From Microglena sp. YARC (Eukaryota > Chlorophyta > Chlorophyceae > Chlamydomonadales > Chlamydomonadaceae): 64,000 bases of DNA. Positions within the stretch are counted from its first letter, which is position 1, and every line of letters starts with the position of its first letter. Location of the stretch: positions 46,510,495 to 46,574,494 of the forward strand of contig CM039465.1 in NCBI GenBank assembly GCA_022414725.1, read 5' to 3'. Below are positions 354 through 64,000 of the stretch, one piece after another. A program made the position numbers and the translations under genes. The notes below the pieces were generated by a model. The model made no database searches, was not told the origin of the DNA, and was given only the letters and a program-made list of their open reading frames with translations.

Positions 354-1135
354 CTGCAAAACAAGCATCGGAATATGCAGTTCAGTGTAGCATGCATCGA
401 CAGCACTTGAACAGGATCTGTGCTGTTGAAGCCTGCACCCGGCGTATGAAGAGGACACAGTGGTTGTGGTTGTGCTAGTTGCCGTTCCTGTTAAAAACAA
501 AAATGAACACACTGGGGGCATGAAGAAGAAAAGTAGCATCAGAATATGCAGTTCAGTGGTTGGTTAGTTGGTTGGCTCGTTGGTTGGTTGGCTGGCTGGT
601 TGGCTGGTTGGTTGGTTGAGTACTCACCTGGCAAGGATGACCGGTCGACGCGAGCATGGTTTGGCTTGGTGAGTTGGTTGGTGAGTGAGTAGCATCAGAA
701 TATGCAGTTCAGTGGTTGGTTAGTTGGTTGGCTGGTTCATCTCCATCCCATCCATCTCCGCTGCTTCTGTGCTGTTGAAGCCTTTCAAAAGTAGCATCAG
801 AATATGTAGTTTAGTGTAGCATGCATCGACTGTACTTGAACAGGATCTGCGCTGTTGAAGCCTTTCAAAAGTAGCATCAGAATATGCAGTTCAGTGTAGC
901 ATGCATCGACTGTACTTGAACAGGATCTGCGCTGTTGAAGCCTTGCAAAAGTAGCATCAGAATATGCAGTTCAGTGTAGCATGCATCGACTGTACTTGAA
1001 CAGGATATGCGCTGTTGAAGCCTTGCAAAAGTAGCATCAGAATATGCAGTTCAGTGTAGCATGCATCGACTGCACTTGAACAGGATCTGTGCTGTTGAAG
1101 CCTTGCAAAAGTAGCATCAGAATATGCTAGCATAA
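354..1135 (-). repeat. Acceptor-type exon-edge array upstream of the FAS1 exon
   Basis: About seven copies, mostly 80 bp apart in the right part, of a segment that on the minus strand reads ...CTTTTGCAAG then GCTTCAACAGC, the same bases as the acceptor and first codons of the exon at 129-353. Copies sit near 425, 775, 850, 930, 1010 and 1090. A second element, a (GGTT)n tract ending in a CACCTGGCAAGGATGACC block, is interleaved at 535-715 and again at 1209-1381. Confidence 0.8.
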
Positions 1136-1381
1136 GAAAAAAGTGTCTCTACCTAACATGTTCTCATGGCTACCGAATATGAGAACACACATGGGTGGGT
1201 GAAGCCTTTCAAAAGTAGCATCAGAATATGCAGTTCAGTTATTGGTTAGTTGGTTGGCTGGTTGGTTGGCTGGTTGGTTGGTTGAGTACTCACCTGGTAA
1301 CCATGAACGGTCGACGCGAGCATGGCTTGGCTTGGTGAGTTGGTTGGTGAGTGAGTAGCATTAGAATATGCAATTCAGTGT

Positions 1382-2056
1382 AGCATGCTTGCATTCTCTA
1401 CGATGGGCGCACGAGTGGGATGGTGGGTAGGTGGGTGGGGTGGGTGACCACCCACCCCGACCCCCACCCACCATGTTCCCCCCACCACTCCACCAGAACG
1501 ACTTTCATCCTGCACATGCTCGCTCATGCCTAAGGTCGGCTATGTTATATAATATTAGTGAATCAATAATATTATATAATATTATATAATATTAATCGGA
1601 CGAGCCGTCTCACCAGAATTCTGAATTTATTTGAAAAACTAATATTATTGTGACACTATAATTATATTAGTTAATATTAGTTTTGTAAACACTAATATTG
1701 GTCGCCGTTCCCTACTCATGCCCTCAGGGAGTGGTTCCCACCCTGGATCCTCCATTCCCAGACAGATCCTCACCTCCCGCCCCCACACCGACCCCCACCC
1801 CATCCCCACCCACATCGATTGCATTCTCTATGAGCTCACGTACGGTAAGAGTTGTGATTCATTGTTTTGCACCCTAACTAACTAACTAGCTAACTAGCTA
1901 ACTAATTAACAATCTAACTAACTATCTAACTAACTAAATAGTGCGCTGGCGTGCGATCAAGGGGGCTAGCCCGTTTGCTTTCACTGGGGCCAACCACCAA
2001 GTGTTTGCACCCTCTTAGTTTGTTATCCTGTTTCACCATTGTGCATGTCATTACTC
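1382..2056. other. Non-coding intronic stretch: GGGTGG, AATATTATAT and CTAA tracts
   Basis: No supportable gene. It holds a GGTGGG/CCCACC inverted stretch near 1420-1490 that could fold, AT-rich AATATTATAT repeats at 1547-1700, and a (CTAA)n tract at 1875-1940. It lies inside the inferred 4.1-kb intron of the FAS1 gene. Confidence 0.5.
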
Positions 2057-4205: not shown

Positions 4206-4207
4206 GT

Positions 4208-13868: not shown

Positions 13869-14119
13869 ATGTCACGGAAGGAGTCTGCGGTTCACTTCTT
13901 TCCAGATGACAATTCACAGGGCTCTGCATTTGGGGTGTCACCCAATCCCCCCACCTCCACGCTACCGAAGTCCGCCGCCACCACGCCAACCAAGTCCGCC
14001 ACGACCATGCCAACCAAGTCTACAACCACCACCTCACAGAGGTCGAGATCCAGGAGCCCTAGTAGCTCCATGCGTACAAGGAATTCCAGTACAGGACGGA
14101 AGAACCAGAGCCGCAACAG
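13869..14119 (+). CDS. Ser/Arg/Thr-rich protein, exon 1
   Basis: ATG at 13,869 and donor AACAG|GTAGGG after 14,119. The three exons (13,869-14,119, 15,304-15,520, 15,732-15,755) join in frame into a 163-residue protein with a TGA stop at 15,753. This exon encodes MSRKESAVHFFPDDNS, a low-complexity T/P/K/S stretch (TPTKSATTMPTKSTTTT), then SQRSRSRSPSSS. The RSRSRSP run resembles RS segments of nuclear splicing-related proteins, but there is no RRM or other domain, so no function is claimed. The start is uncertain because a CAG acceptor abuts the ATG. Upstream exons are possible. Confidence 0.7.
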
Positions 14120-15303
14120 GTAGGGGGAAGTTAGCCTCGGGTTAGCCAGCCCGGGGATGGAGTTTGACCCTAAACCCTAAACCCTAAACCCTAAACCCTA
14201 AACCCCCCTGAACCCTTAAACCCTAAAATCTACCCCCCCACCCCTGGGCTGGCTAACCCCGGGCTGACTTCCCCCCCACCACCGCAGCATCTCTAATACC
14301 CGCTCACGCAGCCCAGTAATACCCCCCCACCCATGGGCTGGCTAACCCTGGGCTGACTTCCCCCCCACCACCGCAGCATCTCAAAATACCCGCTCACGCA
14401 GCCCAGTAATAACCCCCCACCCATGGACAAGCTAACCCCCGGCTAACCTCCCCCACCGCTGCAGCATCTCTAATACCCGCTCACGCAGCCCAGTAATAAC
14501 CCCCCACCCATGGACTGGATAACCCCGGGCTAACCTCCCCCCACCCCGCTGCAGCATCTCGAATACCCGCTCACGCAGCCCAGTAATAACCCCACACCCA
14601 TGGGCTGGCTAACCCCGGGCTAACCTCCCCCCACCCCGCTGCAGCATCTCAAATACCCGCTCACGCAGCCCAGTAATAACCCCACACCCATGGGCTGGCT
14701 AACCCCGGGCTAACTTCCCCCCACCACCGCAGCATCTCTAATACCCGCTCACGCAGCATCTCAAATACCCCGCCGCAGCATCTCTAATACCGGCTAACGC
14801 GGCCCAGTAATACCCCCCCACCCCCGGGCTGGCTAACCCAGGCTAACTTCCCCCACCGCTGCAGCATCTCAAATACCCGCTCACGCAGCCCAGTAATAAC
14901 CCCCCACCCATGGGCTGGCTAACCCCGCGCCAACTTCCCCCCACCGCTGCAGTATCTCTAATACCCGCTCACGCAGCCCAGTAATAACCCCCCACCCATG
15001 GGCTGGCTAACCCCGGGCTAACTTCCCCCCACCGCTGCAGCATCTCAAATACCCGCTCACGCAGCCCAGTAAAAACTCCCCACCCATGGGCTGGCTAAAC
15101 CCCGGGCTAACTTCCCCCACCGCTGCAGCATCTCAAATACCCGCTCTCGCAGCCCAGTAAAACTCCCCACCCATGGGCTGGCTAACCCCGGGCTAACTTC
15201 CCCCCACCGCTGCAGCATCTCAAATACCCGCTCACGCAGCCCAGTAATAATCCCCCACCCATGGGCTGGCTAACCCCGCGCCAACTTTGCCCCACCGCTG
15301 CAG
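14120..15303 (+). repeat. Intron filled by an acceptor-type exon-edge array
   Basis: About a dozen units of roughly 88 bp, each containing CCACCGCTGCAG then CATCTCTAATACCCGCTCAC and GCAGCCCAGTAAT. These are the acceptor and first 30-odd bases of the exon at 15,304. The unit also holds GGGCTGGCTAACCCCGGGCT, whose reverse complement lies at the intron's 5' end (14,127-14,157). A (CCCTAAA)n run is at 14,168-14,205. Choosing an upstream copy as acceptor would read about 20 codons and stop, so the last copy is the only productive one. Confidence 0.92.
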
Positions 15304-18121: not shown

Positions 18122-18139
18122 GTAGGTTGGACTCTCTTT

Positions 18140-19995: not shown

Positions 19996-20014
19996 GCATA
20001 TTATATCATCCCAG

Positions 20015-20392
20015 ATACAGAGGCCATGCTCTGCAGCTACATCAACAGTGACCATGTGCCAAACGACGCCGTGGCCACCCCCACTTTTTTCGTCTGCCAT
20101 GCTTGGGACAACACTTTCAGCAGCCTAGTGGACGGCGTGTCTGATTTCATCACCGCGGGCGCCGACCCCAGCAAAGTCTTCCTATGGGTCGATGTATTTG
20201 CGGTCAACCAGCACCCCTGGGCGTTCAGAAGAAAGGCGCTGCGCAACCTTGATGACGCTATTAACGAGGCGGCAGCTATGCTCGTGGTCCTGGACAACAA
20301 GGCTCTCACGCTAAGCCGCTGCTGGTGTTTGTTCGAGATCTTCTCGATGCTGAGGAACAAGGGATCACAGGAGGTGCACTTCCTCTCTCCAG
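20015..20392 (+). CDS. FLWVDVFAVNQH-motif protein, exon B (core domain)
   Basis: Acceptor TATCATCCCAG before 20,015, donor TCTCCAG|GTACAT after 20,392; 378 nt. Reads (D)TEAMLCSYINSD, then VATPTFFVCHAWDNTFSSLV, then KVFLWVDVFAVNQHPWAF, then INEAAAMLVVLDNKALTL, SRCWCLFEIFSMLRNKGSQ, EVHFLSP. The CHAW, FLWVDVFAVNQH and RCWCLFE blocks define a widespread, poorly characterised protist and algal family whose order of strands and helices recalls TIR-like folds. That fold link is my inference. The N-terminal part is exon A. Downstream exons were not identified; only damaged copies follow. Confidence 0.82.
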
Positions 20393-20542
20393 GTACATGT
20401 GTGTGTGTATGTCTATGTGTATGGGGGTGTGTTTGTCTGTGCGTGTTTGTTTGTGTGTGCATGTCTGCGTGTCTGTGTATGTGCCTGTGTGTGTATGCCT
20501 GTGTGTGTATATCTGTGTGTGTATGTTTGTCTGTCTGTCTGT

Positions 20543-21965: not shown

Positions 21966-21967
21966 CG

Positions 21968-43982: not shown

Positions 43983-44043
<61 letters not shown>

Positions 44044-46290: not shown

Positions 46291-46321
<31 letters not shown>

Positions 46322-47613
46322 TGTTGTGTTGAGTGTGTTTTGCGTGTGTGTGAGTTTGGGTGTGTGTGTGTGGGTAAGTGTGTTTGGTGTGGTGTGTTTG
46401 GTGTTGTGTGTGGTTTGGTGTGTGTATGTGTTTGTTTGGTGTGTGTTTTATGTGTTTTGTGTTGTGTGTGTGGTGTGTTTGGTATGTGTGTTTGGTGGTG
46501 GTGTGTGTGTGTGCTTTGGTGTTTTATGTGTGTTTTGGTGTGTTGTGTGTTTGGTGTGTGTGTGTTGTGCTTCGTGTGTTTAAATGTGTGTTTGGTGTGT
46601 GTGTGGTTTTGGTGTGTGTGTGTTTGGTGTGTGTGTGTGTTTGGTGTGTGTGGTGTTGTTTGGTGTTGTGTGTGTGTTTGGTGTGTGTGTGCGTTTGGTG
46701 TGTGTGTGTGTGTTGCGGCCACCACTGACCTTGCATAGTCCAGCCAGTAAAAATAACATGGAATGGTGGTGATGTTGTGTGTTTGTGTTGCCGCGATCAC
46801 CACTGACCTTGCAATCGTCCAGCCACGAAACCAACAACGAGGGGAGGTGTTTGGTGTTGGTGTGTGTGTGGTGGTGTGTGTGTGTGTCCGCGGCCACCAC
46901 TCACATTGTTGCACCATCCAGCCTAGAAACAATAACATGGATGGTGGTGGTTGGTGTGTGGTTTGGTGTGGTGGGTGGTGGTGTGTGTGTTTGGTGGTGG
47001 TGGTTTTTTTGGGGGGTTTGGGGTGGGTGTGTGTCCCGGCCACCAACTACCTTGCACCATCCACCAGAAACAAATAACATGGATGGTGTGGTGTGTGGTG
47101 TGGTGTGTGTGTGTTTTTTGTGTGTGTGTGTGTTTGGTGTGTGTGTGTGTGTGTCGCGGCCACACTGACCTTCAGCCGTCCAGCACAGAAACAACAACAG
47201 GGGTGGAAGTGGTGTGTGTTTTTGGTGGTGGTTGGTGTGTGTGTGTGGGTGTGTCTTGTGTCGCGGGCACCACTGACCTTGCACCCGTCCCAGCCAGAAA
47301 GCAAAAACAGGGGAGGTGGTGTGCGTGGTGTGTGTGTGTGTGGGTGGTGTGGTGTGTTTTGGTGTGTGTTGTGTGCACAAATCAACCACTGACCTTGCAC
47401 CGGGTCCAGCAGAAACAAAAACAGGGGAGGTTTGGTGGTGCGTTTGGGTGTGTGTGTGGTGGTGTGTGTGTTTGGTGGTGTGTGTGGTGCCAACAATTAC
47501 ACTGACCTTGCACCGTTCCAGCAGAAACAAAAAAAGGGGAGGTTGGTTGGTTGCGTTTGGTGTGTGTTGGTGGTGTGTGTGTTGGTGTGTGTGTGTGCAC
47601 AATCACCACTGAC
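45244..47613 (-). repeat. Donor-type exon-edge array of CDC23, TG-rich on plus strand
   Basis: Nine to ten copies that on the minus strand read GTTGTTTCTGGCTGGACGGT then GCAAG|GTCAGTGGTGGCCGCG, the last codons (LLFLAGRCK) and donor of the exon at 47,614-47,874. Copies lie near 45,640, 45,760, 45,865, 46,730, 46,810, 46,910, 47,050, 47,170, 47,280, 47,400 and 47,510. Spacers are (CA)n on the sense strand. Between 45,900 and 46,700 only spacer-like TG sequence remains. The multi-hundred-residue Val/Cys and His/Thr frames here are artefacts. Confidence 0.88.
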
Positions 47614-47874
47614 CTTGCACCGTCCAGCCAGAAACAACAACGCCTCCACCGAATCTGTTCCCAGGGGAGGTGAGGGCCCTCCCCCTCCAAGACCCCCTGT
47701 ACTGCCTGCCTCTGCGTCCAAGCGTGCCAGGTTGTAGCGGTACAGCTTCTCAGCCTGCGCGTCGTCATGCCTCCCTCGTACGCTTTGCCAGCATGTGTAA
47801 CGGCGATGCCGTCCGGGTCGTTGTGCTGATTGCACGCCGATAGCAGCGGAATGGCCAGATCGGTCCATGTTGAC
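47614..47874 (-). CDS. CDC23: CDC23/APC8, exon with late TPRs (contains frame errors)
   Basis: Acceptor GATGCGCAG before 47,874, donor GCAAG|GTCAGT after 47,614; 261 nt. Pieces readable across indels: VNM, CYRRA, HNDPDGIAVT, LAK.YEG, DDAQAEKLYRYNLARLDAEA, a Gly/Pro linker, DSVEALLFLAGRCK. This follows the order of plant and animal CDC23: a CYRRA helix, LAKLH helix, an adaptor helix pair (YY..DL.RMDAE), then VEAL.FLA..CK. At least two small indels (near 47,833 and 47,803) break the frame; partial copies at 48,050-48,960 lack the first break, so it is probably assembly error. Preceding exon 49,204-49,276 ends in phase 0, as needed. Confidence 0.82.
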
Positions 47875-49087
47875 CTGCGCATCGAGTTGGGTGTTCCGTG
47901 GGTTAGAATTTGGTGGTGGTGGGTTATAGTTATAAGGTGTGTTTTGATGGGTTATAGTTTTGGTGCTGGTGGGTTATTTTGGTGTTGTGGGTACGGGTTC
48001 ACCTTGGCGGTGTATGGGTAACAGTCGGGTGGTGTTGCCGGGTAATGCCCTCAGGGTCGTTGTGCTTGCTTGCACGCCTGTAGCAGTGGTTTGGCCAGAT
48101 TTGCATTGTTGGCCGTGGGCATAATCGGGCTGGGTTTTGGTGGGTGAGAAAGTTGGGTGTTTGGTGGGTAACGGTCATACTTGGGGGAGCTGGGTGTCGT
48201 TGGGTTAGAGTTTGGCTGGTGCATGGGTAACTGACGGGTGCTGTTCACCATGTGCATTTGAGTTGGGTGTTGCGGGTTAGTGTTGGTGTTGATGGGTAAA
48301 CGGGCCATAACTTGAGCTGTGTATGGGTAACTGTTGGGAGTTGTTTTGCCCGGGTAAATGCCCATCAGGGTTTGTGCTCAATAAGCACGCCCTTGTAGCA
48401 GCGGACTGGCCAGATTCATTCAAAATTGACCTGGACATCAGGTTTGGGTTTGTCGGTGGGGCAAGAGTTTTGAGTTTTTGTGGGTTAAGTTGGGTGGTTA
48501 ATGGGTTTGAGTTGTAGGTGTGTATTGATGGGTTGTCGATTGGTGTTGGTGGGCAATTATTTCGTGTTGGTAAGTTATTGGTTTGGTGTTGGTGGGTAAC
48601 GGGTCATCCTTGGCGGTGTATGGGTAACTGTTGGGTGTTGTTGCCGGGTAATGCCGTCTGGGTCGTTGTGCTCGACAGCACGTCTGTAGCAGCGGATGGC
48701 CAGAACGTGCATGTAGGTCTGGGCATCGGGCTGGGTGTCGTTTACAGGTTAGAGTTTACGGTGTATGGGTAACTGTCGTGCATGTTCACCTGGGCATTGA
48801 GTTAGGTGTCGGCGGGTGAGTGTTGGGTGTTGATGGGTAACGGGTCTTGCTTGGCTGTGTCTGGGTAACTATCGGTGTTGTTGCCGGGTAATACCGTCAG
48901 GGTCGTTGATCTCGATAGCATGCCTGTAGCAGCGGATGGCCAGAACCTTCATATTGACCTAGGCATAGGGGTTTGTGTTGGTGGGGAATCATTTGGTGTT
49001 GGTGGGATCATCCTGGGATCTTAGGGCCCCCCCCCCTACCCCCCGCCCCCCCCCACACACACACACATACCTCCTGTCTGACTGAAA
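47875..49087 (-). repeat. Acceptor-type exon-edge array of CDC23
   Basis: Four copies at about 48,050-48,115, 48,365-48,440, 48,655-48,730 and 48,895-48,965. Each covers the first 60-70 bases of the exon at 47,874. On the minus strand the 48,700 copy reads DAQTYMHVLAIRCYRRA then VEHNDPDGI before diverging. Spacers contain (GGGTGTTG), GGGTAAC and GATGGGTTA motifs. Confidence 0.85.
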
Positions 49088-49203
49088 CGTACGCTGCTCA
49101 TATATGTAGCACTGCCAAGAGCACACCACATCCTAGCCCCCCCACCCACCCACCCACCCACCCACCCACCCACCCACAAACCTCCTGTCTGACCGAACCG
49201 TAC
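49088..49203 (-). repeat. Donor-edge copy of the next CDC23 exon plus (CCCA)n
   Basis: 49,088-49,135 is a copy of the last 45 bases of the exon at 49,204-49,276 (RMWCALGSATY-type reading, one base lost) with its TACG donor region. It is separated from the exon by about ten CCCA units at 49,138-49,177. Confidence 0.8.
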
Positions 49204-49276
49204 CTGCTCATGAATGTAGCACTGCCCAAGAGCACACCACATCCTGGCATCGGTGGGCCGCAGTGCAGCCGCCCGC
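49204..49276 (-). CDS. CDC23: CDC23/APC8 exon (YYYRRAAALRPTDARMW TPR)
   Basis: Acceptor GTTGTGCAG before 49,276, donor GAGCAG|GTACGG after 49,204; 73 nt. Joined to the upstream exon (phase 2) it reads YYYR-RAAALRPTDARMW then CALGQCYIHEQ. This matches the conserved CDC23 segment YYYRRAxxLRPxDxRMxxALGxCYE. Ends in phase 0, joining to VNM...CYRRA. Intact frame. Confidence 0.92.
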
Positions 49277-50162
49277 CTGCACAACACAAAAGTGATATTA
49301 CAACTCAGAGGGCTGGCGCATAGGTGGATGGTGGGCAGGTGCATGGTGGGCAAGATGTATGGTGGATGGTGGGCGGTGTGGCATAGTGCAGGGTGGGATG
49401 ATTGGTGACTGACACACACCTCATCCTGGCATCGGTAGGCCGCAGTGCAGTCGCTCTCTTGCAAAAAACAAAAAGTGGTATTAAACAACCTGACCCCCTT
49501 ATTAACTTGAGGTGACCGCAGGTGGCGTGGGCCCATGGCACATGTTGGGGGTTCATGCGCAGGTGGCGTGGGCCCATGGCCCATGTTGGGGGTTCATGCG
49601 CAGGTGGTGTGGGCCCATGACCCATGTTGGGGGTTGATGCGCAGGTGGTGTGGGCCCATAGCCCATGTTGGGGGTTGAAGCGAAGGTGGTGTGGGCCCAT
49701 AGCCCATGTTGGGGGTTGATGCGCAGGTGGTGTGGGCCCATAGCCCCATGTTGGGGTTGATGCGGCAGGTGGTGTGGGCCCATAGCCGCATGTTGGGGGT
49801 TGATGCGCAGGTGGTGTGGGCCCATGGCCGCATGTTGGGGTTGATGCGCAGGTGGTGTGGGCCCATGGCCCATGTTGGGGGTTCATGCGCAGGTCGTGTG
49901 GGCCCATGGCCCATGTTGGGGGTTCATGCGCAGGTGGTGTGGGCCCATGGCCCATGTTGGGGGTTCATGCGCAGGTCGTGTGGGCCCATGGCCCATGTTG
50001 GGGGTTCATGCGCAGGTGGTGTGGGCCCATGGCCCATGTTGGGGGTTCATGCGCAGGTGGTGTAGGCCCATGGCCGCGGCTGACGCCAAACCCTAAGGTA
50101 TTGTGGCACTTTCCCCGGTGTAACAAGTGTAACGGTGGGGTCTCTGCTACATCGAGAGCTGT
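49277..50162 (-). repeat. Acceptor-edge copy and 57-bp GGCCCATGGCCCATGTTGGG array
   Basis: 49,422-49,465 is a copy of the acceptor and first bases of the exon at 49,276 (TTTTGCAAGAGAGCGACTGC on the minus strand, then ACTGCGGCC). 49,515-50,085 is a tandem array of ten 57-bp units (GCGCAGGTGGTGTGGGCCCA, TGGCCCATGTTGGGGGTTCA). I could not trace the 57-bp unit to an exon edge. Confidence 0.85.
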
Positions 50163-50930: not shown

Positions 50931-51672
50931 CCTTCCCATACCCTGCAGTAGTAGACGGCATAGAGGGGAAAGCTTCCGCCCTATTGTTACATTGACATTC
51001 AAGCTCGGTGGCTGGTGTGTGCATGGTGCATGGTGGACGGTGGTCTGATAGGTGACTGAAAGCAAACCTATCCCTATCCCCACCTGTAGTAGTAACACGG
51101 CATAGATTGGGCATATTGAGCAGCTCGTTACACTCCCCCCCCCCCCGCCCCCCCCCCCACACACACACACTCTCTCCTCCCCCATCCCCACCCCAACAAC
51201 AACAACCCACACACACAAAACCAACACACATACACTCCCTGACCCCCCCCCCCCCCCCCCCTCCCCCCACCACCACCACACACACACACACACACTCCCT
51301 GCCCTCCCCCCTCCCTCCCCCAACAACAACCCACACCCCCACAAGCCCACAACACATATACTCCCCCCACCACCACCAACCACACACACACACACACACA
51401 GCACACTCTCTCTCTATCCACGCCTGTAGTAGTAGACGCCATAAGAAGGGCATCTTAAGCAGCTCATTAAACTCCCTGACCCCCCCCCACACACACACAC
51501 ACACCCACCCTCTCCCTGCCCTCCCCCCATCCCCCCCCCAACAACAACAACCCACCCACACAAACCAACACACATATACCCCCCCCCCCCCCCCCCCCCC
51601 CTTTCCCACGCACGCACGCACACACACACACATACACACACACACACAAGCACACCCTATCCCTATCCCCAC
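50931..51672 (-). repeat. Donor-type exon-edge array of CDC23
   Basis: Three copies (about 50,941-50,985, 51,081-51,130 and 51,423-51,470) of the last 40-45 bases of the exon at 51,673. On the minus strand: GAGCTGCTGAAGATGCCC..., CTACTACTACAG|GTGGGG. The sense-strand spacer is G- and GT-rich, with runs such as 51,246-51,262 and 51,580-51,602 (C on plus). Confidence 0.88.
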
Positions 51673-51784
51673 CTGTAGTAGTAGACTGCATAGAAGGGCA
51701 TCTTCAGCAGCTCATACGCCTGACCAAGGCCATACCAGGCTCTGAAATCGTGTCGGTTCAAGTCGATGGCGTGACGGTACGCGT
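51673..51784 (-). CDS. CDC23: CDC23/APC8 exon ([10 protein letters not shown]...[12 protein letters not shown])
   Basis: Acceptor GTACGTAG before 51,784, donor CTACTACAG|GTGGGG after 51,673; 112 nt. It reads (D)[36 protein letters not shown]. This is the most conserved part of CDC23, a TPR subunit of the anaphase-promoting complex/cyclosome, the ubiquitin ligase that drives mitotic exit (family knowledge). Enters phase 1, leaves phase 2; both joins agree with the neighbouring exons. Intact frame. Confidence 0.95.
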
Positions 51785-53215
51785 CTACGTACAAAACACA
51801 AGGTTTGGGCTTAATATGGGATAAGGTTGGGCTTATTGAGGCACACGGTTATGGGTTAGTGCTCTGAAAATGTGTATGTTTAAGTCTATGGCGTGACGGT
51901 ACGCGTCTGTGTACAACACACAAGGTACAGTCTTAATATGGGATAAGGTTGAGCTTAGTGCGGCACACGGTTACGGGTTAGTGCTCTGAAAATGTGTAGT
52001 TTCAACTCGATGGCGTGACGGTACGCGTCTGTGTACAACACACAAGGTCTGGGCTGAATATGGGACAAGGTTGGGCTTATTGAGGCACACGGGTACAGGT
52101 TAGTGCTCTGAAAATGTGTAGTTTCAAGTCGATGGTGTGACGGTACGCGGCTGTACTCAATAAGCAAGTTTTGGTCTTAGTATGGGGCAAGTTTAAGGGT
52201 TAGTGCTCTGGAATTGTATGGGTCCAAGTCAATGACGTTATAGTACGCGTCTGTGTATAATTGTAAGATGTAGGACTGATTTTATGACAATGCTTGGGCT
52301 TAGTGCTCTGAAAAGGTGTGGGTTCAAGTCAATGGCGTGATGGTATGCGTCTGTGTACAACACACAAAGGTACAGGCCGCTTAATATGGGATACGTTGGG
52401 CTTCTTGAGGCACACGGTTACGGGGTAGTGCTCTGAAAATGTGTATGTTTAAGTCAATGGCATGACGCTATTCAGCTGTGTACAGCAAGCAAGGTACAGG
52501 CTTAGTATAGGATAAGGTTGGGCTTATTGCGGCACACGCTTATGGGTCAGTGCTCTGAAATCGTGTGGGTTCAAGTCAATGGCGTGACGATACGCAGCAG
52601 GGTACAGCAAGCAAGGTGCAGGCTTAGTATTGGACAAGGTCGGGCTTATTGTGTCACATAGTTACGGGGCAGTGCTCTGTAAATGTGTATGTTTAAGTCG
52701 ATGGCGCGACGGTACGCATCTGTGTACAACACACAATGTTCAGGCTTAGTATGGGACAAGGTTGAGCTTATTGCGGCACATGGTTACGGGTCAGTGCTCT
52801 GAACTCGTGTGGGTTCAAGTCCATGGCATGACGATGCGCAGCAGGGTATAGCAAGTAAGGTTTGCGCTTGTTATGGAACAATGTTGGGATTATTGCGGCA
52901 CATGGTTACGGGTCAGTGCTCTGAAATCGTGTGGGTTCAAGTCCATGGCATGACACTACACAGCTGTGTACAGCAAGCAAGGTACAGGCTTAGTATAGGA
53001 TAAGGTTGGGCTTGTTGCTACACATGGTTACGGGTCAGTGCTCTGAAATCGTGTAGGCTCAAGTCCATGGCATGACTGTACACAGCTGTGTACAGCAAGC
53101 AAGGTTTGCCCTTGTTATGGAACAATGTTGGGATTATTGCGGCACATGGTTACGGGTTAGTGCTCTGAAATCGTGTGGGTTCCAGTCAATGGCGTGAAAA
53201 TACGCAGCAGGGGAC
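51785..53215 (-). repeat. Acceptor-type exon-edge array of CDC23
   Basis: Twelve or so units of about 115-125 bp. On the minus strand each has GTGTACACAG|ACGCGTACCGTCACG, CCATCGACTTGAA... and ATTTTCAGAGCACTAACCCG, copying the acceptor and first 45 bases ([16 protein letters not shown]) of the exon at 51,784. Spacer contains CATATTAAGCC and AACCTTGTCCCATA. Left-most copies are closest to the exon; those to the right drift. Confidence 0.93.
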
Positions 53216-54591
53216 AAAGGAACACACACACATAATCTACACAAAAAAAAAAAAAAAACCCATACAAAGATATAAACACATGAACATACATATAGCAGCA
53301 GATGTGCTCACCCCATAAATTCGAGCCCTATCAGTGCTTACACACGCACACACACGTACACACATATACACACATACACACACAGACAACCATTCCTATA
53401 GCAGCAGATGTGTTCTTCATTTCCATATACTTGTGCTCCATCAGCGCTTACACACGCACACACACATGCACATGCACATGTATAGCAGCAGATGTGCGTT
53501 CCATCTCCATATACTCGTACCTCATCAGCACTTACACACATACACACATACACACATATAAACAAACACACACAGACACACATGCCTATAGCAGCAGATG
53601 TGCGTTCCATCTTCATATACCCGTACCTCATCAGCGCTTACACACTTACACACATACACACATATAAACAAACACACAGACACACATACCTATAGCAGCA
53701 GATGTGCGTTCCATCTCCATATACCCGTACCTCATCAGCACTTACACACATACACACATATAAACAAACACACAGACACACATGCCTATAGCAGCAGATG
53801 TGCGTTCCATCTTCATATACCCGTACCTCATCAGCGCTTACACACTTACACACATACACACATATAAACAAACACACAGACACACATACCTATAGCAGCA
53901 GATGTGCGTTCCATCTCCATATACCCGTACCTCATCAGCACTTACACACATTCACACATATAAACAAACACACACAGACACACATGCCTATAGCAGCAGA
54001 TGTGCGTTCCATCCCCATATACCCGTACCTCAGCAGCACTTACACACTTACACACATGCACACGTATAAACACACACACACATGCCTATAGCAGCAGATG
54101 TGCGTTCCATCTCCATATACCCGTACCTCATCAGCGCTTACACACTTACACACATACACACATATCAACAAACACACAGACACACATACCTATAGCAGCA
54201 GATGTGCGTTCCATCTCCATATACCCGTACCTCATCAGCGCTTACACACTTACACACATACACACATATAAACAAACACACAGACACACATTCCTATAGC
54301 AGCAGATGTGCGTTCCATCTCCATATACTCGTACCTCATCAGCACTTACACACTTACGCACATACACACATACACACATATTAACAAACACATACAGGTA
54401 CACATTCCTATAGCAGCAGATGGGTTCTTCATCTCCATATACTCGTGCTCCATCAGCACTTACACACACACACAGGCACACATACCTATAGCAGCAGAAG
54501 TGTTCTTCGTTTCCATATACAAGTGCCCCATCAGCGCCGAAGCACACACGCAGGAACACACATACACACTTACACACAAAGACGCACATAC
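53216..54591 (-). repeat. Donor-type exon-edge array of CDC23
   Basis: About thirteen units of 84-110 bp. On the minus strand each reads GATGAG.TACGGGTATATGG, AGATGGAACGCACATCTGCT, GCTATAG|GTATGTGTGTCTG, copying the last 45 bases ([13 protein letters not shown]) and donor of the exon at 54,592. The sense-strand spacer is TGTGTATG-rich. A-run at 53,244-53,260. Confidence 0.93.
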
Positions 54592-54715
54592 CTATAGCAG
54601 CAGAAGTGTTCTTCATCTCCATGTACTCGTGCCCCATCAGAGTCCATGCACCAAGGCAGCTACGGTCCAGGTGTAGTGCTCGCCTGAAGTACACCACCGC
54701 CTTCTCATGTTCACC
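54592..54715 (-). CDS. CDC23: CDC23/APC8 exon ([12 protein letters not shown]...[14 protein letters not shown])
   Basis: Acceptor ATATTGCAG before 54,715, donor GCTATAG|GTATGT after 54,592; 124 nt, phase 0 in, phase 1 out. It reads [41 protein letters not shown]. [40 protein letters not shown] is diagnostic of CDC23. Intact frame. Confidence 0.95.
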
Positions 54716-56517
54716 CTGCAATATATAAATAAATAAATACATAAATAAATAAATAAATAAATAAAAATAATAAATAAACGGTACAATGGAAGCCGTTATT
54801 ATGAGGCTTGAGGTTGAGGGGGCCAGCCAAAAACACCTTGAGAGAGTAGTAGTTTCCCACAATACAGCATGTTTCTGGACTGTACTTGTCCATGGCCACA
54901 GCCCCCCCCACCCCCCCCCCCCCCCCCCCCCCACCCCCACCCCACCCCCCACCGCACACGCACACACACACTACCCTCCAACCACCATCCATACCCACAC
55001 AGCATCACCAATAACACACCTTGAGAGAGTAGAAGTTGCCCACATAGTAGCATGTCTTGGCCTGTACTTTTCCATGGCCACACCATCCCCCCCCTCCCCC
55101 ACCCCACCCACCCACACCACACGCAAACATACACCCACTCGCTACCCTCCCACCTACATCCATACCCGCACCAGCATCACCACCAGCACTCCTAAAGAGA
55201 GTGGTAGTTGCTCACCTTACAATACGTCTCAGGCCTGAACTTGTCCATGGCCACAACATTGCTCCCCCACACGCGACCCCACCCTCCCATACCCCCGCAC
55301 GCACTAACATCCATTCCCACACTACCACAGAGACAAACTATCCATACTCACACTACCCACCCACCTACCCACAAACCCTAAACCCCAACCCACCCACACC
55401 AACACACCTTAAGAGAGTAGTAGTTGCCCACAATACAGTATATCTCTGGCCGGTACCTGTCTGTTTCCACAGCATCGCCCCCCCCACCCCCCGCCCACCC
55501 ACAAACCCTAAACTCACCCCCAACCCAAACCTAAACCAACACCAACAAACCTTGAGTGAGTAGTAGTTGCCACATTACAGCATGTCTCTGGCCTGTAGTT
55601 GTCCATGGGCCACAGCATCCCTCCCCCCCCACCCCCCCCACCCACACACACACACACACAAACCCAAGTATCACGAACCCTAACCCCCACCCCCACTCCA
55701 CCAACACACCTTGAGAGAGTAAGTAGTATTGCCCACATTACAGCATGTCTTCTGGCCTGTAGTTGTCCATGGCCACAGCATCCCTTCCCCCCCCCCCACC
55801 CCCCCACACACACACAAACCCAAGTACTCACGAACCCTAACCCCCACCCCCACTCCACCCAACACACCTTGAGAGAGTAGTAGTTGCCCACATTACAGCG
55901 TGTCTCTGGCCTGTAGTTGTCCATGGCCACAGCATCGCTTCCCCCCCCCCCCCCCCCCCCCCCCCTCACACAAATACACACACACTAACATCCACACCCA
56001 CACTACCACACTATCCATACTCACATTACCCCGCCCACACACACTACCCCGCCATCCTACCCACACCAACACCCATACCAACACCCATACCAACACCACA
56101 AACCTTGAGAGAGTAGTAGTTGCCCACATTACAGCATGTCACTGACCTGTACTTGTCCATGGCCACAGTAACCCCCCCCCCCCCCCCCCACCCCCCCCCC
56201 ACCCACACAAACCCAAGTACTCACAAACCTAACCCCCCCCCACCAACACCCCACATACAAACATTGAGAGAGTAGTAGTTGCCCACAATACAGCATGTCT
56301 CTGGCCTGTTTTGTCCATGCCCCCCCCCCCCCCACACACACACACACACTCACACACACTAACATCCATACCCACACTACCACACTATCCATTCTCACAC
56401 TACCACCCCCACCCACCCCACTATCCCAGACACACCAACACCCATACACACACCAAAACACCTTAAGAGAGCAGTAGCTGCCCACAATACAGCATGTCTC
56501 TGGCCTGTTCTTGTCCA

Positions 56518-56565
<48 letters not shown>

Positions 56566-56600
56566 ACACACATACATCCATACCACCACCACCAACAAAC
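54716..56600 (-). repeat. Donor-type exon-edge array of CDC23
   Basis: About ten copies of the last 60-70 bases of the exon at 56,601. On the minus strand: GCTGTGGCCATGGACAAGTA, CAGGCCAGAGACATGCTG, GGCAACTACTACTCTCTCAA, G|GTGTGTT. Copies near 54,836, 55,019, 55,197, 55,408, 55,553, 55,712, 55,868, 56,103, 56,264 and 56,463. Coding part is almost unchanged while spacers (poly-C on plus, CA tracts, CCCTAACCCC) vary in length. An (AAAT)n tract at 54,722-54,776 adjoins the next acceptor. Confidence 0.94.
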
Positions 56601-56738
56601 CTTGAGAGAGTAGTAGTTGCCCACAATACAGCATGTCTCTGGCCTGTACTTGTCCATGGCCACAGCCCTGTGTGCCAGGTGACTGAGGGCAACGAACTGC
56701 TCCTTCACAAACAGAATGTTGGACAGAGTGTCCATGCC
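56601..56738 (-). CDS. CDC23: CDC23/APC8 exon ([10 protein letters not shown]...[16 protein letters not shown])
   Basis: Acceptor GACTGCGTAG before 56,738, donor CTCAAG|GTTTGT after 56,601; 138 nt, phase 0 at both ends. It reads [46 protein letters not shown]. MDTxSNxLxV and DKYRxETCCxxGNYYSL are CDC23 signatures. Joins upstream to HRLE and downstream to GEHEKAV in frame. Confidence 0.95.
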
Positions 56739-56880: not shown

Positions 56881-57489
56881 AGCATGGTAACGTGTACCAT
56901 CCTAGTATGTTACCATGTACTGTGTACCATGTATGGTACTGTGTACTGCTCCTTCAAAAGCAGCATGGCACCATGTACCATCCTCAACTCACCTCTACCC
57001 TGTGCGGATCCTTCTATAGGATGCCTTAAAATAGCGACCGAGCGGACCTGACTGGAGGCTGCCGGGCGCAGCCCCAAAAGAAACAGTGATAACGTGTACC
57101 ATCCCCAAGTCACCTCTAACCTGTGTGGTTCCTCCTCTAGGATGCCTTCAAACAGCGACGGAGCGGACCTGGCTGGAAGCTGCCAGACGTAGCCCCCCCC
57201 CCCAAAACAGTGCTAATGACTTGTGCCATCCTCAACTCACCTCTAACCTGTGTGGGTCCTTCTCTAGGATGCCTTCAAACAGCGACTGAGTGAACCTGGC
57301 TGGAATCTGCCAGACGTAGGCCCCCCCCCCAAAACAGTGCTAATGACTTGTACCATCCTCACCTCACCTCTGCCCTGTGCAGGTTTTTCTCTAGGATGCC
57401 TTCAAACAGCGACCGAGCCGACCTGGCTGGAAGCTGCCAGACGTAGGCCCCCCCCAAAACAGTGTTAACGTGTACCATCCTCAACTCAC
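56881..57489 (-). repeat. Donor-type exon-edge array of CDC23
   Basis: Four copies (about 56,995-57,050, 57,112-57,170, 57,240-57,295, 57,363-57,420) of the 3' part of the exon at 57,490. On the minus strand: CGCTGTTTGAAGGCATCC, TAGAGAAGGACCCACACAGG, TTAGAG|GTGAGTTGAGG. The true exon reads LFEDIIEKDPHRLE. Spacers include CCAGCCAGGTCCGCTC and GTTAC-type ends. 56,881-56,960 holds repeated GTACCATG blocks. Confidence 0.9.
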
Positions 57490-57570
57490 CTCTAACCTGT
57501 GTGGGTCCTTCTCTATGATGTCTTCAAACAGCGACTGCGCCTCGTCAAAGTTTTGCAGGTTGTAGTGTGC
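57490..57570 (-). CDS. CDC23: CDC23/APC8 exon (AHYNLQNFDEAQSLFEDI)
   Basis: Acceptor CTCCTACAG before 57,570, donor TTAGAG|GTGAGT after 57,490; 81 nt, phase 0 at both ends. It reads AHYNLQNFDEAQSLFEDI, IEKDPHRLE. It matches the CDC23 TPR that precedes MDTxSN. It is the most N-terminal exon seen; the region coding the first part of the protein lies beyond 64,000, past a satellite of more than 6 kb. Confidence 0.93.
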
Positions 57571-57671
57571 CTGTAGGAGGTGTGGGGTGGGTTTGTGTGG
57601 GGTGGGTTGAGTGTACAGCCTGTGTGTGTTTGTGTGGGGTGGGTTGTGTGTGCAGCCTGTGTGTGTGTGTG

Positions 57672-57714
<43 letters not shown>

Positions 57715-60700
57715 AAACACAATCCGCACCCCTGTGACAGATCATGGAGGCATAGTGCATTGGGGTTTAGTGTAGCTTGTAGTGCGCATGCGACAGGTTA
57801 TATAGTGGTGGTGTTTCAGGTAATATAGACAGGTAATCGAGAGGTGGTATGTCAGGTTGTGGTGTGCCTGTGACAAATCATATTGGCATAGTGCATTGGG
57901 GTTTAGTGTAGTTTGTTGTGTGCATGAGGTAATGTAGTGGTAATATAGACAGGTACTAAAGAGGTTGTATTTCAGGTTGTCGTGTGCCTGTGACGCAGCA
58001 TAGTCGCATAGTGCACTCGGTTGTGTAGTTCGCAGTGTGCATGAGGTCATAAAGTGGTGTTTGTTTCAGGTTGTGGTGTGCATGTGACACATCATGGTGG
58101 CATAGTGCATTGGGGTTTAGTGTAGGTTGTAGTGTGCATGCGTCAGGTAATAGAGAGGTGGTGTTACAGGTTGTGGTGTGCATGTGACACATCATGGTGG
58201 CATAGTGCATTGGGGTTTAGTGTAGGCTGTAGTGTGCATGCGTCAGGTAATAGAGAGGTGGTGTTTCAGGTTGTGGTGTGCATGGTTGGTGGTAGTGCAT
58301 TGTTTAGGTGCAGGTTGTGGTGGTGCACCATGCATGGGGGTGGCATATGGTGCATTGGGTTTAGTGTAGGTTGTAGTGTGCATGCGTCAGGTAATAGAGA
58401 GGTGGTGTTTTTCAGGTTTGGTGTGCATGTGACACATCATGGTGGCATAGTGCATTGGGGTTTAGTGTAGGTTGTAGTGTGCATGCGACAGGTAATAGAG
58501 AGGTGGTGTTTCAGGTTGTGGTGTGCATGTGACACATCATGGTGGCATAGTGCATTGGGGTTTAGTGTAGGTTGTAGTGTGCATGCGTCAGGTAATAGAG
58601 AGGTGGTGTTTTAGATTGTGGTGTGCATGTGACACATCATGGTGGCATAGTGCATTGGGGTTTAGTGTAGGTTGTAGTGTGCATGCGACAGGTAATAGAG
58701 AGGTGGTGTTTTGTGACAGGTTGTGGTGTGCATGTGACACATCATGGTGGCATAGTGCATTGGGGTTTAGTGTAGGTTGTAGTGTGCATGCGTCAGGTAA
58801 TAGAGAGGTGGTGTTTCAATTTGTAGTGTGCATGTGACACATCATGGTGGCATAGTGCATTGGGGTTTAGTGTAGGTTGTAGTGTGCATGCGTCAGGTAA
58901 TAGAGAGGTGGTGTTTTAGGTTGTGGTGTGCATGTGACACATCATGGTGGCATAGTGCATTGGGGTTTAGTGTAGGTTGTAGTGTGCATGCGACAGGTAA
59001 TAAGAGAGGTGGTGTTTAGGTTGTGGTGTGCATGTGACACATCATGGTGGCATAGTGCATTGGGGTTTAGTGTAGGTTGTAGTGTGCATGCGTCAGGTAA
59101 TAGAGAGGTGGTGTTTCAGGTTGTGGTGTGCATGTGACACATCATGGTGGCATAGTGCATTGGGGTTTAGTGTAGGTTGTAGTGTGCATGCGTCAGGTAA
59201 TAGAGAGGTGGTGTTTCAGGTTGTGGTGTGCATGTGACACATCATGGTGGCATAGTGCATTGGGGTTAGTGTAGGTTGTAGTGTGCATGCGTCAGGTAAA
59301 TAGAGAGGTGGTGTTTCAGGTTGTGGTGTGCATGTGACACATCATGGTGGCATAGTGCATTGGGGTTTAGTGTAGGTTGTAGTGTGCATGCGTCAGGTAA
59401 TAGAGAGGTGGTGTTACAGGTTGTGGGTGTGATGTGACACATCATGGTGGCATAGTGCATTGGGGTTTAGTGTAGGTTGTAGTGTGCATGCGTCAGGTAA
59501 TAGAGAGGTGGTGTTTTCAGGTTGTGGTGTGCATGTGACACATCAATGGTGGCATAGTGCATTGGGGTTTAGTGTAGGTTTGTAGTGTGCATGCGTCAGG
59601 TAATAGAGAGGTGGTGTTAGGTTGTGGTGTGCATGTGACACATCATGGTGGCATAGTGCATTGGTTTAGTGTAGGTTGTAGTGTGCATGCGTCAGGTAAT
59701 AGAGAGGTGGTGTTACAGGTTGTGGTGTGCATGTGACACATCATGGTGGCATAGTGCATTGGGGTTTAGTGTAGGTTGTAGTGTGCATGCGTCAGGTATA
59801 GAGAGGTGGTGTTTTCAGGTAGGTTGTGGTGTGCATGTGACACATCATGGTGGCATAGTGCATTGGGGTTTAGTGTAGGTTGTAGTGTGCATGCGACAGG
59901 TAATAGAGAGGTGGTGTTTCAGGTTGTGGTGTGCATGTGACACATCATGGTGGCATAGTGCATTGGGGTTTAGTGTAGGTTGTAGTGTGCATGCGACAGG
60001 TAATAAGAGGTGGTTTTCAGGTTGTGGTGTGCATGTGACACATCATGGTGGCATAGTGCATTGGGGTTTAGTGTAGGTTGTAGTGTGCATGCGTTCAGGT
60101 AATAGAGAGGTGGTGTTTCAGGTTGTGGTGTGCATGTGACACATCATGGTGGCATAGTGGCATTGGGGTTTAGTGTAGGTTGTAGTGTGCATGCGTCAGG
60201 TAATAGAGAGGTGGTGTTACAGGTTGTGGTGTGCATGTGACACATCATGGTGGCATAGTGTTGGGGTTAGTGTAGGTTGTTGTGTGCATGCGACAGGTAA
60301 TAGGCAGGTTGTGGTGTGCATGTGACACATCATGGTGGCATAGTGCATTGGGGTTTAGTGTAGGTTGTAGTGTGCATGCGACAGGTAATAGAGAGGTGGT
60401 GTTACAGGTTGTGGTGTGCATGTGACACATCATGGTGGCATAGTGCATTGGGGTTTAGTGTAGGTTGTAGTGTGCATGCGTCAGGTATAGAGAGGTGGTG
60501 TTTCAGGTTGTGGTGTGCATGTGACACATCATGGTGGCATAGTGCATTGGGGTTTAGTGTAGGTTGTAGTGTGCATGCGTCAGGTAATAGAGAGGTGGTG
60601 TTTCAGGTTGTGGTGTGCATGTGACACATCATGGTGGCATAGTGCATTGGGGTTTAGTGTAGGTTGTAGTGTGCATGCGTCAGGTAATAGAGAGGTGGTG

Positions 60701-63700
60701 TTTCAGGTTGTGGTGTGCATGTGACACATCATGGTGGCATAGTGCATTGGGGTTTAGTGTAGGTTGTAGTGTGCATGCGACAGGTATTATAATAGAGAGG
60801 TGGTGTTTCAGGTTGTGGTGTGCATGTGACACATCATGGTGGCATAGTGCATTGGGGTTTAGTGTAGGTTGTAGTGTGCATGCGACAGGTAATAGAGAGG
60901 TGGTGTTACAGGTTGTGGTGTGCATGTGACACATCATGGTGGCATAGTGCATTGGGGTTTAGTGTAGGTTGTAGTGTGCATGCGTCAGGTAATAGAGAGG
61001 TGGTGTTTCAGGTTGTGGTGTGCATGTGACACATCATGGTGGCATAGTGCATTGGGGTTTAGTGTAGGTTGTAGTGTGGCATGTGGCGTCAGGTAATAGA
61101 GGGTGGTGTTTTCAGGTTGTTGGTGTGCATGTGACACATTCATGGTGGCATAGTGCATTGGGGTTTAGTGTAGGTTGTAGTGTGCATGCGTCAGGTAATA
61201 GAGAGGTGGTGTTTCAGGTTGTGGTGTGCATGTGACACATCATGGTGGCATAGTGCATTGGGGTTTAGTGTAGGTTGTAGTGTGCATGCGACAGGTAATA
61301 GAGAGGTGGTGTTTCAGGTTGTGGTGTGCATGTGACACATCATGGTGGCATAGTGCATTGGGGTTTAGTGTAGGTTGTAGTGTGCATGCGACAGGTAATA
61401 GAGAGGTGGTGTTTTAGGTTGTGGTGTGCATGTGACACATCATGGTGGCATAGTGCATTGGGGTTTAGTGTAGGTTGTAGTGTGCATGCGACAGGTAATA
61501 GAGAGGTGGTGTTACAGGTTGTGGTGTGCATGTGACACATCATGGTGGCATAGTGCATTGGGGTTTAGTGTAGGTTGTAGTGTGCATGCGTCAGGTAATA
61601 GAGAGGCGGTGTTTCAGGTTGTGGTGTGCATGTGACACATCATGGTGGCATAGTGCATTGGGGTTTAGTGTAGGTTGTAGTGTGCATGCGACAGGTAAAA
61701 GCGAGGTGGTGTTTTAGGTTGTGGTGTGCATGTGACACATCATGGTGGCATAGTGCATTGGGGTTTAGTGTAGGTTGTAGTGTGCATGCGTCAGGTAATA
61801 GAGAGGTGGTGTTTTAGGTTGTGGTGTGCATGTGACACATCATGGTGGCATAGTGCATTGGGGTTTAGTGTAGGTTGTAGTGTGCATGCGACAGGTAAAA
61901 GAGAGGTGGTGTTTCAGGTTGTGGTGTGCATGTGACACATCATGGTGGCATAGTGCATTGGGGTTTAGTGTAGGTTGTAGTGTGCATGCGTCAGGTAATA
62001 GAGAGGTGGTGTTTCAGGTTGTGGTGTGCATGTGACAGGTGATGAGGGGCATAGTACATTGGGTTGTAGTGTAGGTTGTAGTGTGCTTGCAACAAGTTAT
62101 ACAGTGGTGGTGTTCAAGGTTGTGGTGTACATGTGACAGATCATGCAGGCATAGTGCATTCGGGTTTAGTGAAGCTTGTAGTGTGCATGAGGTAATATAG
62201 TGGTGGTGTTTCAGGTTGTGGAGTGCATGTGACAGGTGATGAGAGGCATAGTACACTGGGTTTTAGTGTAGCTTGTAGTTTAGGTTGTAGTGTGCATGCG
62301 ACATGTCATTATAGTGGTGGTGTTCAGGTTCTGGGAGTGCATGCAACATGTGATATAGTGGTGGTGTTTCAGGTTGTGGTGTGCATGTGACACATCATGG
62401 TGCATAGTGCATCGGGGTTTAGTGGAGGTCACGGTGTGCATGCGACAGGTCATACAGTGGTGGTGTTTCAGGTTCTAGTATGCATCTGACAGGTAATGAG
62501 GGGCATAGTACATTGGGTGTTAGTGTAGCTTGTAGTGTAGGTCGTTGTGTGCATGCGACAGGTTGATTATAGTGGGGGTGTTGCAGGTTGTGGTGTAGGT
62601 TGTAGAATGCATGTGACAGGTGATGAGGGGCATAGTACATTGGGTTGTAGTGTGCATGTGACAGGTCATACAGTGGTGGTGTTTCAGGTTGTGGTGTGCA
62701 TATGACAGGTGATGAGGGGCATAAGTACATTGGGTTGTAGTGTAGCTTGTAGTGTAGGTTGTAGTGCGCATGCGACAGGTCATATAGTGGTGGTATTTCA
62801 GGTTGTGGTGTGCTTGTGACAGGTGATGAGGGGCATAGTACATTGGGTTGTAGTGTGCATGTGACAGGTCATTTAGTGGTGGTGTTTCAGGTTGTGGTGT
62901 GCATGTGACAGACCACGTATGTAGAGCACATTGGGGTTTTAGTGAAGGTTGTAGTTTAGTTAGTAGTGCGCATGCGACAGGTAATGTAGTGGTGGTGTAT
63001 CAGGTTCTAGTATGCATGTGACAGGTCATGGTGGCATAGTGCATTGGGGTTTAGTGTAGGTTACGGGTGCATACAACAGGTCATACAGTGGTGGTGTTCC
63101 AGGTTGTGGTGTATATGTGACAGATCATGCAGGCATAGTGCATTCGGTTTTAGTGTAGCTTGTAGTGTGCATGAGGTAATATAAGTGGTGGTGTTTCAGG
63201 TTGTGGTGTGCATGTGACACATCATGGTGGCATAGCGCATCGGGGTTTAGTGGAGGTCGTGGTTTGCATGCGACAGGTCATACAGTGGTGATGTTTCAGG
63301 TTGTGGAGTGCATGTGACAGGTGATGAGAGGCATAGTACACTGGGTTTTAGTGTAGCTTGTAGTTTAGGTTGTAGTGTGCATGCGACATGTCATATAGTG
63401 GTGGTGTTTCAGGTTCTGGTGTGCATGTGACAGGAGATGAGAGGCATAGTACATTGGGTTTTGGTGTAGCTTGTAGTGTAGGTTGTAGTGTGCATGGGAC
63501 ATGTCATATAGTGGTGGTGTTTCAGGTTGTGGTGTGCATGTGACAGGTGATGAGGGGCATAGTACTTTTGGTTGTAGTGTAGGTTATGTGTGCATGCAAC
63601 AGGTCATGCAGTGGTGGTGTTCAAGGTTGTGGTGTACATGTGACAGATCATGCAGGCATAGTGCACTCGGGTTTAGTGAAGCTTGTAGTGTGCATGAGGT

Positions 63701-64000
63701 AATATAGTGGTGGTGTTTCAGGTTGTGGAGTGCATGTGACAGGTGATGAGAGGCATAGTACACTGGGTTTTAGTGTAGCTTGTAGTTTAGGTTGTAGTGT
63801 GCATGCGACATGTCATATAGTGGTGGTGTTTCAGGTTCTGGAGTGCATGCAACATGTGATATAGTGGTGGTTGTTTCAGGTTGTGTGTGTGCATGTGACA
63901 CATCATGGTGGCATAGTGCATCGGGGTTTAGTGGAGGTCACGGTGTGCATGCGACAGGTCATACAGTGGTGGTGTTTCAGGTTCTAGTATGCATCTGACA
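57571..64000 (-). repeat. Satellite of more than 6 kb derived from a CDC23 exon edge
   Basis: Roughly 60 units of about 101 bp. On the minus strand each unit contains two copies of ATGCACAC(T/C)ACAACCT, matching GGCACACTACAACCTGCAAA at the start of the exon at 57,570. The rest of the unit is TAAACCCCAATGCACTATGC, CACCATGATGTGTCAC and CACCACCTCTCTATTACCTG. Units are almost identical from 58,070 to 62,030 and more varied on both sides. A (GT)n tract lies at 57,657-57,713. The array runs off the window. Confidence 0.93.

Follow-up and report, generated by a model that had tools for sequence, protein, structure and literature searches.

Tandem repeats within introns have been described in two volvocine green algae, Chlamydomonas reinhardtii and Volvox carteri, where, according to the part of the report available to us (PMC3887541), they are densest in introns and commoner near the intron-exon junctions and where the authors propose a link with splicing; further background on volvocine introns is given in the excerpted text of PMC8226300. 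In human genes of segmental duplications, tandem repeats with units of up to 228 bases extend over exon-intron boundaries and are either spliced out or kept (PMC2812944, in extracts), and splicing tolerates a boundary-crossing tandem duplication also in a potato gene, where the accessible part of the account describes intron gain (PMC4974935). Introners with inverted ends are likewise known (PMC9860276, from an extract). Here we describe a 64,000-nucleotide stretch of the genome of the green alga Microglena sp. YARC (G000:C4:46510495-46574494; "the window" denotes the whole of this stretch), in which introns of the CDC23/APC8 gene and of other genes hold, next to an exon, head-to-tail copies of the end of that exon together with its splice site.

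These arrays share with the volvocine repeats a green algal host and a place in introns and near junctions, but their units have a median length of 90 bases (arrays with a period of at least 30) and carry exon edges, and arrays detected by Tandem Repeats Finder (TRF) cover on average 0.45 of random loci, whereas the volvocine motifs, as far as the extract of PMC3887541 goes, are short (GT/AC dinucleotides in introns) and amount to a density of 4.2% in C. reinhardtii; the two densities are not directly comparable because the methods differ. The boundary-spanning human repeats are similar in layout, but the extract of PMC2812944 counts 27 intron modifications in recent paralogs, as compared to 19 of 46 boundaries of conserved chaperonin (CCT) genes here. 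Introners consist of one sequence dispersed over many introns; this is not what was found for the arrays in general, since 169 of 184 had no match in any other stretch that was fetched, the fetched DNA being a small sample of the genome. Finally, duplication leading to intron gain creates a new intron, whereas here existing introns are enlarged. Among the open-access papers listed we found no account of splice-junction arrays at this scale, and it is the scale that seems to be new: units of 90 bases in the median, 19 of 46 CCT boundaries and decoy splice sites that are largely intact.

Exon-edge copies in CDC23 and chaperonin genes

The assembly comprises 568 Mb in 2390 contigs, five of them of 46-195 Mb and a sixth of 18.6 Mb, and all intron calls in this analysis derive from homology and from reading or scripting of the genomic DNA of one strain. 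Among the best 120 of 7990 matches, an exon for SAM synthetase of this genome is 100% identical to a gene model in EukProt and 86% identical to Chlamydomonas eustigma, which makes a place in Chlamydomonadales likely. The CDC23/APC8 gene lies on the minus strand of the window from 57,570 to 47,614 (Table 1). The joined protein of its exons A to E aligns with human CDC23 (4ui9_C) over 172 residues and without a gap over four joins (E = 3.5e-75), human CDC23 being the best natural protein for these exons and an engineered repeat protein scoring above it. Because they were established by homology, the boundaries of exons A to E are independent of the repeats. Each intron was searched with 40-base pieces of the flanking exons, with exon middles, far ends and shuffled introns as controls. 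Donor-side edge copies numbered 4, 10, 13, 3 and 1 in introns A-B, B-C, C-D, D-E and E-F, respectively, and acceptor-side copies 12 in C-D, 4 in E-F, one each in D-E and A-B (the latter weak) and none in B-C. The control pieces gave two weak matches in intron C-D and none in the other CDC23 introns, and shuffled introns gave no match for the donor edges or for the acceptor edges of C-D and E-F, at most one for those of A-B and D-E and never more than two, whatever the piece. The copies are mostly local, as 14 of 15 scored genome matches of the exon-D acceptor unit lie within its own intron or at the exon-D edge. A lone copy of this unit, 84% identical, is found on another chromosome (G000:C2:86005121-86005234).

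CCT exons elsewhere in the genome were located with Pfam PF00118 (64 matches). The sample consisted of twelve stretches representing eleven loci, ten of which were used and eight of which yielded introns; of the 38 pairs of adjacent exons, 26 received junctions modelled by script from the sequence, the 23 good-scoring models being kept, and exon lengths are estimates. A tile scan of 48 CCT exon matches revealed copies at many exon edges and few in exon interiors. The 23 introns carry copies at 9 donors and 10 acceptors, that is at 19 of 46 boundaries and in 14 introns, and repeat coverage falls from 0.3-0.4 at the exon edge to 0.00-0.08 about 90 bases inside the exon. With a stricter match applied to all 26 models, 9 donors and 11 acceptors had copies as compared to 0 of 52 shuffled boundaries (one shuffle each). 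When the five CDC23 introns are added, which are those picked by the original prediction and show copies at 9 of 10 boundaries and in 5 of 5 introns, the pooled set has copies at 14 of 28 donors and 14 of 28 acceptors (28 of 56 boundaries) and in 19 of 28 introns. Apart from this, some chaperonin and HSP90 genes were matched as a single long open frame (G000:C6:13962293-13963762 and G000:C2:11022851-11024356), with relatives split across several exons.

Repeat density and the growth of arrays

For the same 28 introns, repeat coverage, taken as the share of 24-base pieces having a second copy nearby, was 0.46 for donors and 0.36 for acceptors, as compared to 0.45 for the intron body and 0.03 for exon bodies. 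Junctions exceeded the body in 13 introns and fell below it in 12 (paired Wilcoxon p = 0.51; junction/body ratio 0.90, bootstrap 0.66-1.17), and the CCT introns alone gave 0.36, 0.36 and 0.40 for donors, acceptors and body (p = 0.65). Eleven random loci reached 0.07-1.00 on a similar measure with a 700-base reach, and TRF arrays with a period of at least 20 covered a mean of 0.45 of these loci (0.04-0.95; shuffles 0.000). Junctions thus are covered no more densely than intron bodies and random loci are repetitive too, and exons therefore stand as islands in a remainder that holds repeats. A hot spot at junctions, and with it the initial claim of a process acting on splice junctions, finds no support in these 28 introns.

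We think it likely that local tandem duplication operates genome-wide, is purged from exon bodies and is tolerated across junctions. The genome is exceptionally rich in local tandem duplications, which would become minisatellites both in introns and at random loci. Those that span most of an exon would break the message and be removed by selection, the presumed filter, whereas those inside an intron or over one junction would be tolerated, since splicing from the outermost donor to the outermost acceptor leaves the mRNA as it was. As soon as there are two units, unequal exchange, the presumed motor, or slippage would amplify and homogenise them, so that repeats of the exon edge, splice site included, would fill the adjoining intron. 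The equal involvement of donors and acceptors is in support of this notion.

Unit-by-unit comparison of one array, that at the exon-C donor, bears on the postulated growth. Most of its eight inner units (54,293 to 53,585) agree with one another at 90-100%, with some drift of those at 54,085 (86-90%) and 53,987 (86-95% versus the others), but all eight are only 77-82% like the true exon edge; the end units are more divergent, most of all the last one (65-72%). As judged from its units, this one array has the pattern of satellite-like evolution through putative exchange among units, unlike what repeated copying from the exon would leave. Head-to-tail copies that include the exon end and splice site and, in this array, homogenised inner units are also traits of minisatellites or internal tandem repeats. 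As to the filter, the copies take in 20 to 115 bases of the exon (median 55) and the whole exon in 0 of 27 cases, whereas random placement of the observed unit lengths would lead one to expect 3.6 such cases (P(0) = 0.02). The missing whole-exon copies and the shorter reach, both dependent on estimated exon lengths, fit removal by selection.

A dedicated process that copies DNA at splice junctions, for instance through breaks linked to splicing or R-loops, would account for the copies at all five CDC23 donors and their coverage above that of the intron body, for the copies at 28 of 56 boundaries and for the higher density of tandem repeats toward intron ends that the available part of PMC3887541 gives for C. 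reinhardtii and V. carteri. However, such a process is difficult to reconcile with junctions that do not rise above the body, with comparably repetitive random loci and with inner copies that, in the array compared, are closer to each other than to the exon. We regard it as improbable.

Several observations nevertheless weigh against genome-wide duplication with purging. The bootstrap interval leaves room for a modest excess or deficit at junctions. The CDC23 introns taken alone have a donor mean of 0.92 (five values) as compared to 0.71 in the body and 0.36 at acceptors, and thus a local donor bias is possible, and the volvocine repeats just mentioned are likewise denser toward intron ends. 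Moreover, matches occur in 37 of 408 exon-interior windows of the 26 CCT models, 12 of these from models that were dropped later, and the reach expected from random placement (median 70 versus 55) differs from that observed at a Kolmogorov-Smirnov p of 0.077.

An introner-like intron and other features of the window

The intron at 14,120-15,303 stands apart. Its left arm pairs with the right arm or with later copies of it at 76-87% complementarity (8 pairs), and the right-arm sequence is present at 12 places. In a genome search with the array unit, in which 40 of 86 candidates were scored, 57 of 71 matches lay outside the array, all of them in unit bases 39-88 and several as inverted pairs, whereas, among the same scored candidates, the half of the unit that bears the acceptor and the exon start occurred at its own locus only. 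The element at 14119-14275 measures about 157 bases and has a CCCTAAA-like middle, and the bases beside its two arms, compared by eye for a target site duplication, are about 7/8 alike. A cruder end-to-end test of inverted ends scored 34 for this intron, under the 99th percentile of mismatched ends (36, which G runs may inflate), and the case for an introner therefore rests on the arm pairs and the genome dispersal. Like the introners of PMC9860276, to the extent that its extract describes them, the intron starts with an arm of a dispersed sequence, and its array repeats the inverted partner. Judged by its sequence, it resembles an element of the introner type, the right end of which may have been amplified later together with the exon edge. 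The early view that the arrays are not one transposon family therefore holds for the arrays generally but not for this part of the intron. Inverted ends are no general feature, as own pairs scored 16.3 and other pairs 15.1 in 29 introns; the top score of 37 is a G run, followed by the 14,120 intron.

The introns might alternatively have been born by tandem duplication of exon segments bearing AGGT, a form of intron gain that is reportedly due to Rogers (1989). The geometry is similar, and the potato duplication, in the extract of PMC4974935, crosses an intron-exon boundary. However, likeness between donor and acceptor was 10.9 in own pairs and 10.8 in other pairs of 29 introns, the top own score of 18 equalling the 99th percentile of the other pairs. 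We consider this origin very improbable, as the own pairs show no excess. The acceptor region of intron 18122-20014 reads like the last bases of the exon upstream of it, as though a degenerate array copy had taken over as acceptor; its likeness score of 16 compares with 95th and 99th percentiles of 15 and 18 in other pairs.

The original prediction listed ten donor and eight acceptor arrays in the window. Nine of the former hold at least two extra copies of exon edge plus donor, namely those at 20,393 (9), 39,719 (7), 43,392 (8), 45,244-47,613 (11), 50,931 (3), 53,216 (13), 54,716 (10) and 56,881 (4) as well as the 18-19 kb array, which has 2 extra copies of the edge at 18,121 embedded in CACAA/CCCAA runs. 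The tenth, 4208-4480 (32-base unit, 6.8 copies), has just three weak matches (10-13 edits in 42) to a supposed exon edge, and the adjoining open frame has no Pfam match. Five acceptor arrays are clear (354-1135, 6 copies; 14,120-15,303, 12; 38,561, 6; 47,875, 4; 51,785, 12). Less convincing are 42,955-43,298 (3 copies at an unproven exon), 40,900-41,435 (one weak copy) and 57,571-64,000, which shares only about 15 exon bases and gave 118 loose matches as compared to 4.8 in shuffles. The expected excess of edge copies over shuffled controls was borne out, shuffles averaging 0 to 0.1 copies in the clear window cases and none at the CCT boundaries, as was the claim that units vary from one intron to the next; most of the units are local. 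That essentially every intron is built in this way was too strong a statement, given a junction copy in 14 of 23 CCT and 5 of 5 CDC23 introns and the existence of internal arrays free of exon edges (about 49,530-50,080).

Table 1. Exons, arrays and related elements of the window
Feature	Position	Strand	Basis
CDC23 exon A	57490..57570	-	aligned to human CDC23 (4ui9_C)
Exon A donor array, 4 extra copies	56972..57489	-	exon-edge search
CDC23 exon B	56601..56738	-	alignment to human CDC23
Exon B donor array, 10 extra copies; final copy runs into short intron remainder	54820..56600	-	exon-edge search and reading
CDC23 exon C	54592..54715	-	alignment to human CDC23
Exon C donor array, 13 extra copies, internally homogenised	53250..54591	-	exon-edge search and unit comparison
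Exon D acceptor array, 12 copies, ~122-base unit	51785..53215	-	exon-edge search
CDC23 exon D	51673..51784	-	alignment to human CDC23
Exon D donor array, 3 extra copies	50931..51672	-	exon-edge search
Intron-internal array, ~37-base unit, without exon edge	49530..50080	-	reading
CDC23 exon E	49204..49276	-	alignment to human CDC23
Exon E donor copy, 1 extra	49085..49203	-	exon-edge search
Exon F acceptor array, 4 copies	47875..48970	-	exon-edge search
CDC23 exon F	47614..47874	-	reading; outside human CDC23 alignment query
Exon F donor array, 11 extra copies amid CA runs	45620..47613	-	exon-edge search
Satellite preceding CDC23 exon A, ~15 bases in common with exon start (by eye)	57571..64000	-	reading
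Open exon upstream of introner-like intron, no Pfam family	13869..14119	+	open frame
Left inverted arm, 42 bases, begins at donor	14119..14160	+	inverted-repeat search
Right inverted arm, 77 bases beyond left arm; arm sequence also dispersed in genome	14238..14275	+	inverted-repeat and genome search
Acceptor array, 12 copies of a unit made up of right arm, AG and start of exon	14275..15303	+	tandem-repeat scan, exon-edge and genome search
WD40-type exon acceptor array, 6 copies	38558..39509	+	exon-edge search
WD40-type exon	39510..39718	+	Pfam WD40 on hand-joined translation
WD40-type exon donor array, 7 extra matches	39719..40860	+	exon-edge search
Open exon, no Pfam family	20015..20392	+	open frame
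Donor array, 9 extra copies, mainly 141-base unit	20393..21985	+	exon-edge search and tandem-repeat scan
Open exon, no Pfam family	129..353	-	open frame
Acceptor array, 6 copies, mainly 80-base unit	354..1135	-	exon-edge search and tandem-repeat scan
Donor array, 8 extra matches, unproven exon	43392..44041	+	exon-edge search

The assembler might have invented or misjoined the arrays from noisy long reads. The window does contain an N gap of 1000 bases (44,244-45,243), the frame breaks in CDC23 exon F suggest assembly indels, and indel errors are probable there and in the WD40-type exon. However, the copies in the compared array differ by up to about a third and in structured variants, and the same pattern, made of other units, is seen at loci of several chromosome-scale contigs. 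An artefact is thus hardly credible.

The Pfam scan covered five pieces of the window, leaving out the exons at 15, 41 and 43 kb. The WD40 piece matched Pfam WD40 with E = 8.5e-6 and 26.5 bits against a cut-off of 27, the four pieces near 20 kb, 0.1 kb, 14 kb and 5 kb matched no family, and Rfam gave no match at gathering thresholds. The window further contains an AT-rich satellite of 13 kb (23159-36286) with a unit of 27-28 bases, for which TRF also gives a period of 83 bases. On another contig, locus L015 (G000:C3:10000001-10010000) has a run of long open reading frames (ORFs), one of which gives the impression, no search having been made, of a packaging ATPase; we take the locus to be, probably, an integrated virus-like element. 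A second ORF of L015 gave a single Pfam match far under the cut-off.

Splicing in the presence of decoys

The splice dinucleotide is retained in most copies, GT in 68 of 91 donor copies (19 arrays; 31 of 42 for CDC23 exon ends A to F) and AG in 38 of 47 acceptor copies (13 arrays), and splicing must therefore pass over many decoys. The conserved protein can result only when splicing joins the first donor to the last acceptor. Compared to neighbouring bases the decoy dinucleotides show no depletion (p = 0.85 for donors, 0.195 for acceptors), which speaks against inactivation of decoys by selection, yet no more than 5 of the 13 copies in the exon-C array retain GT.

But how would so many decoys be disregarded? 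One answer is that the arrays heal themselves by recursive splicing. With AG at exon ends and GT at intron starts, each GT...AG unit would itself be a removable intron, units could be removed in any order, and arrays would be tolerated only at junctions where the exon end can act as a 3' splice site. Indeed, AG closes 24 of the 28 modelled exons, several exon ends are rich in pyrimidines ahead of it, and the intron at 18,122-20,014, with a score between the 95th and 99th percentiles, appears to finish on a degenerate copy of the exon end that precedes it. However, acceptor scores of exon ends with and without donor arrays are -4.9 and -6.3 (p = 0.22; 14 versus 14 donors, and hence of low power), AG-ended exon ends are no better than interior exonic AGs (p = 0.35), and a GT exon start is found in 5 of 14 cases with acceptor arrays as compared to 7 of 14 without. 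The idea leaves most acceptor arrays unexplained. Recursive splicing thus drew no support from the acceptor-score tests in this small sample, and we hold it to be unlikely.

Exon definition likely explains the disregard of decoys, as far as can be judged from genomic sequence. An exon requires two splice sites, of which each copy supplies just one, and exon definition would therefore overlook the copies. In its most far-reaching form, which we put forward tentatively and with some doubt, about 40-50% of splice sites would lie in arrays of largely intact self-copies with 20-115 bases of true exon context, the arrays would be removed either one unit at a time or under a strict rule of exon definition, and introns would grow at their own junctions at nearly no cost. 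If this is true, the alga is a natural experiment on the distinction between genuine splice sites and near-perfect decoys. The choice of splice sites has usually been examined with no more than a few competing sites, whereas here a single gene holds many decoys, and if RNA confirms correct splicing, this would argue that the decision depends on context beyond the splice site. Edge duplication would, in addition, offer a simple route for intron growth in a genome in which arrays take up 0.45 of the sampled random loci.

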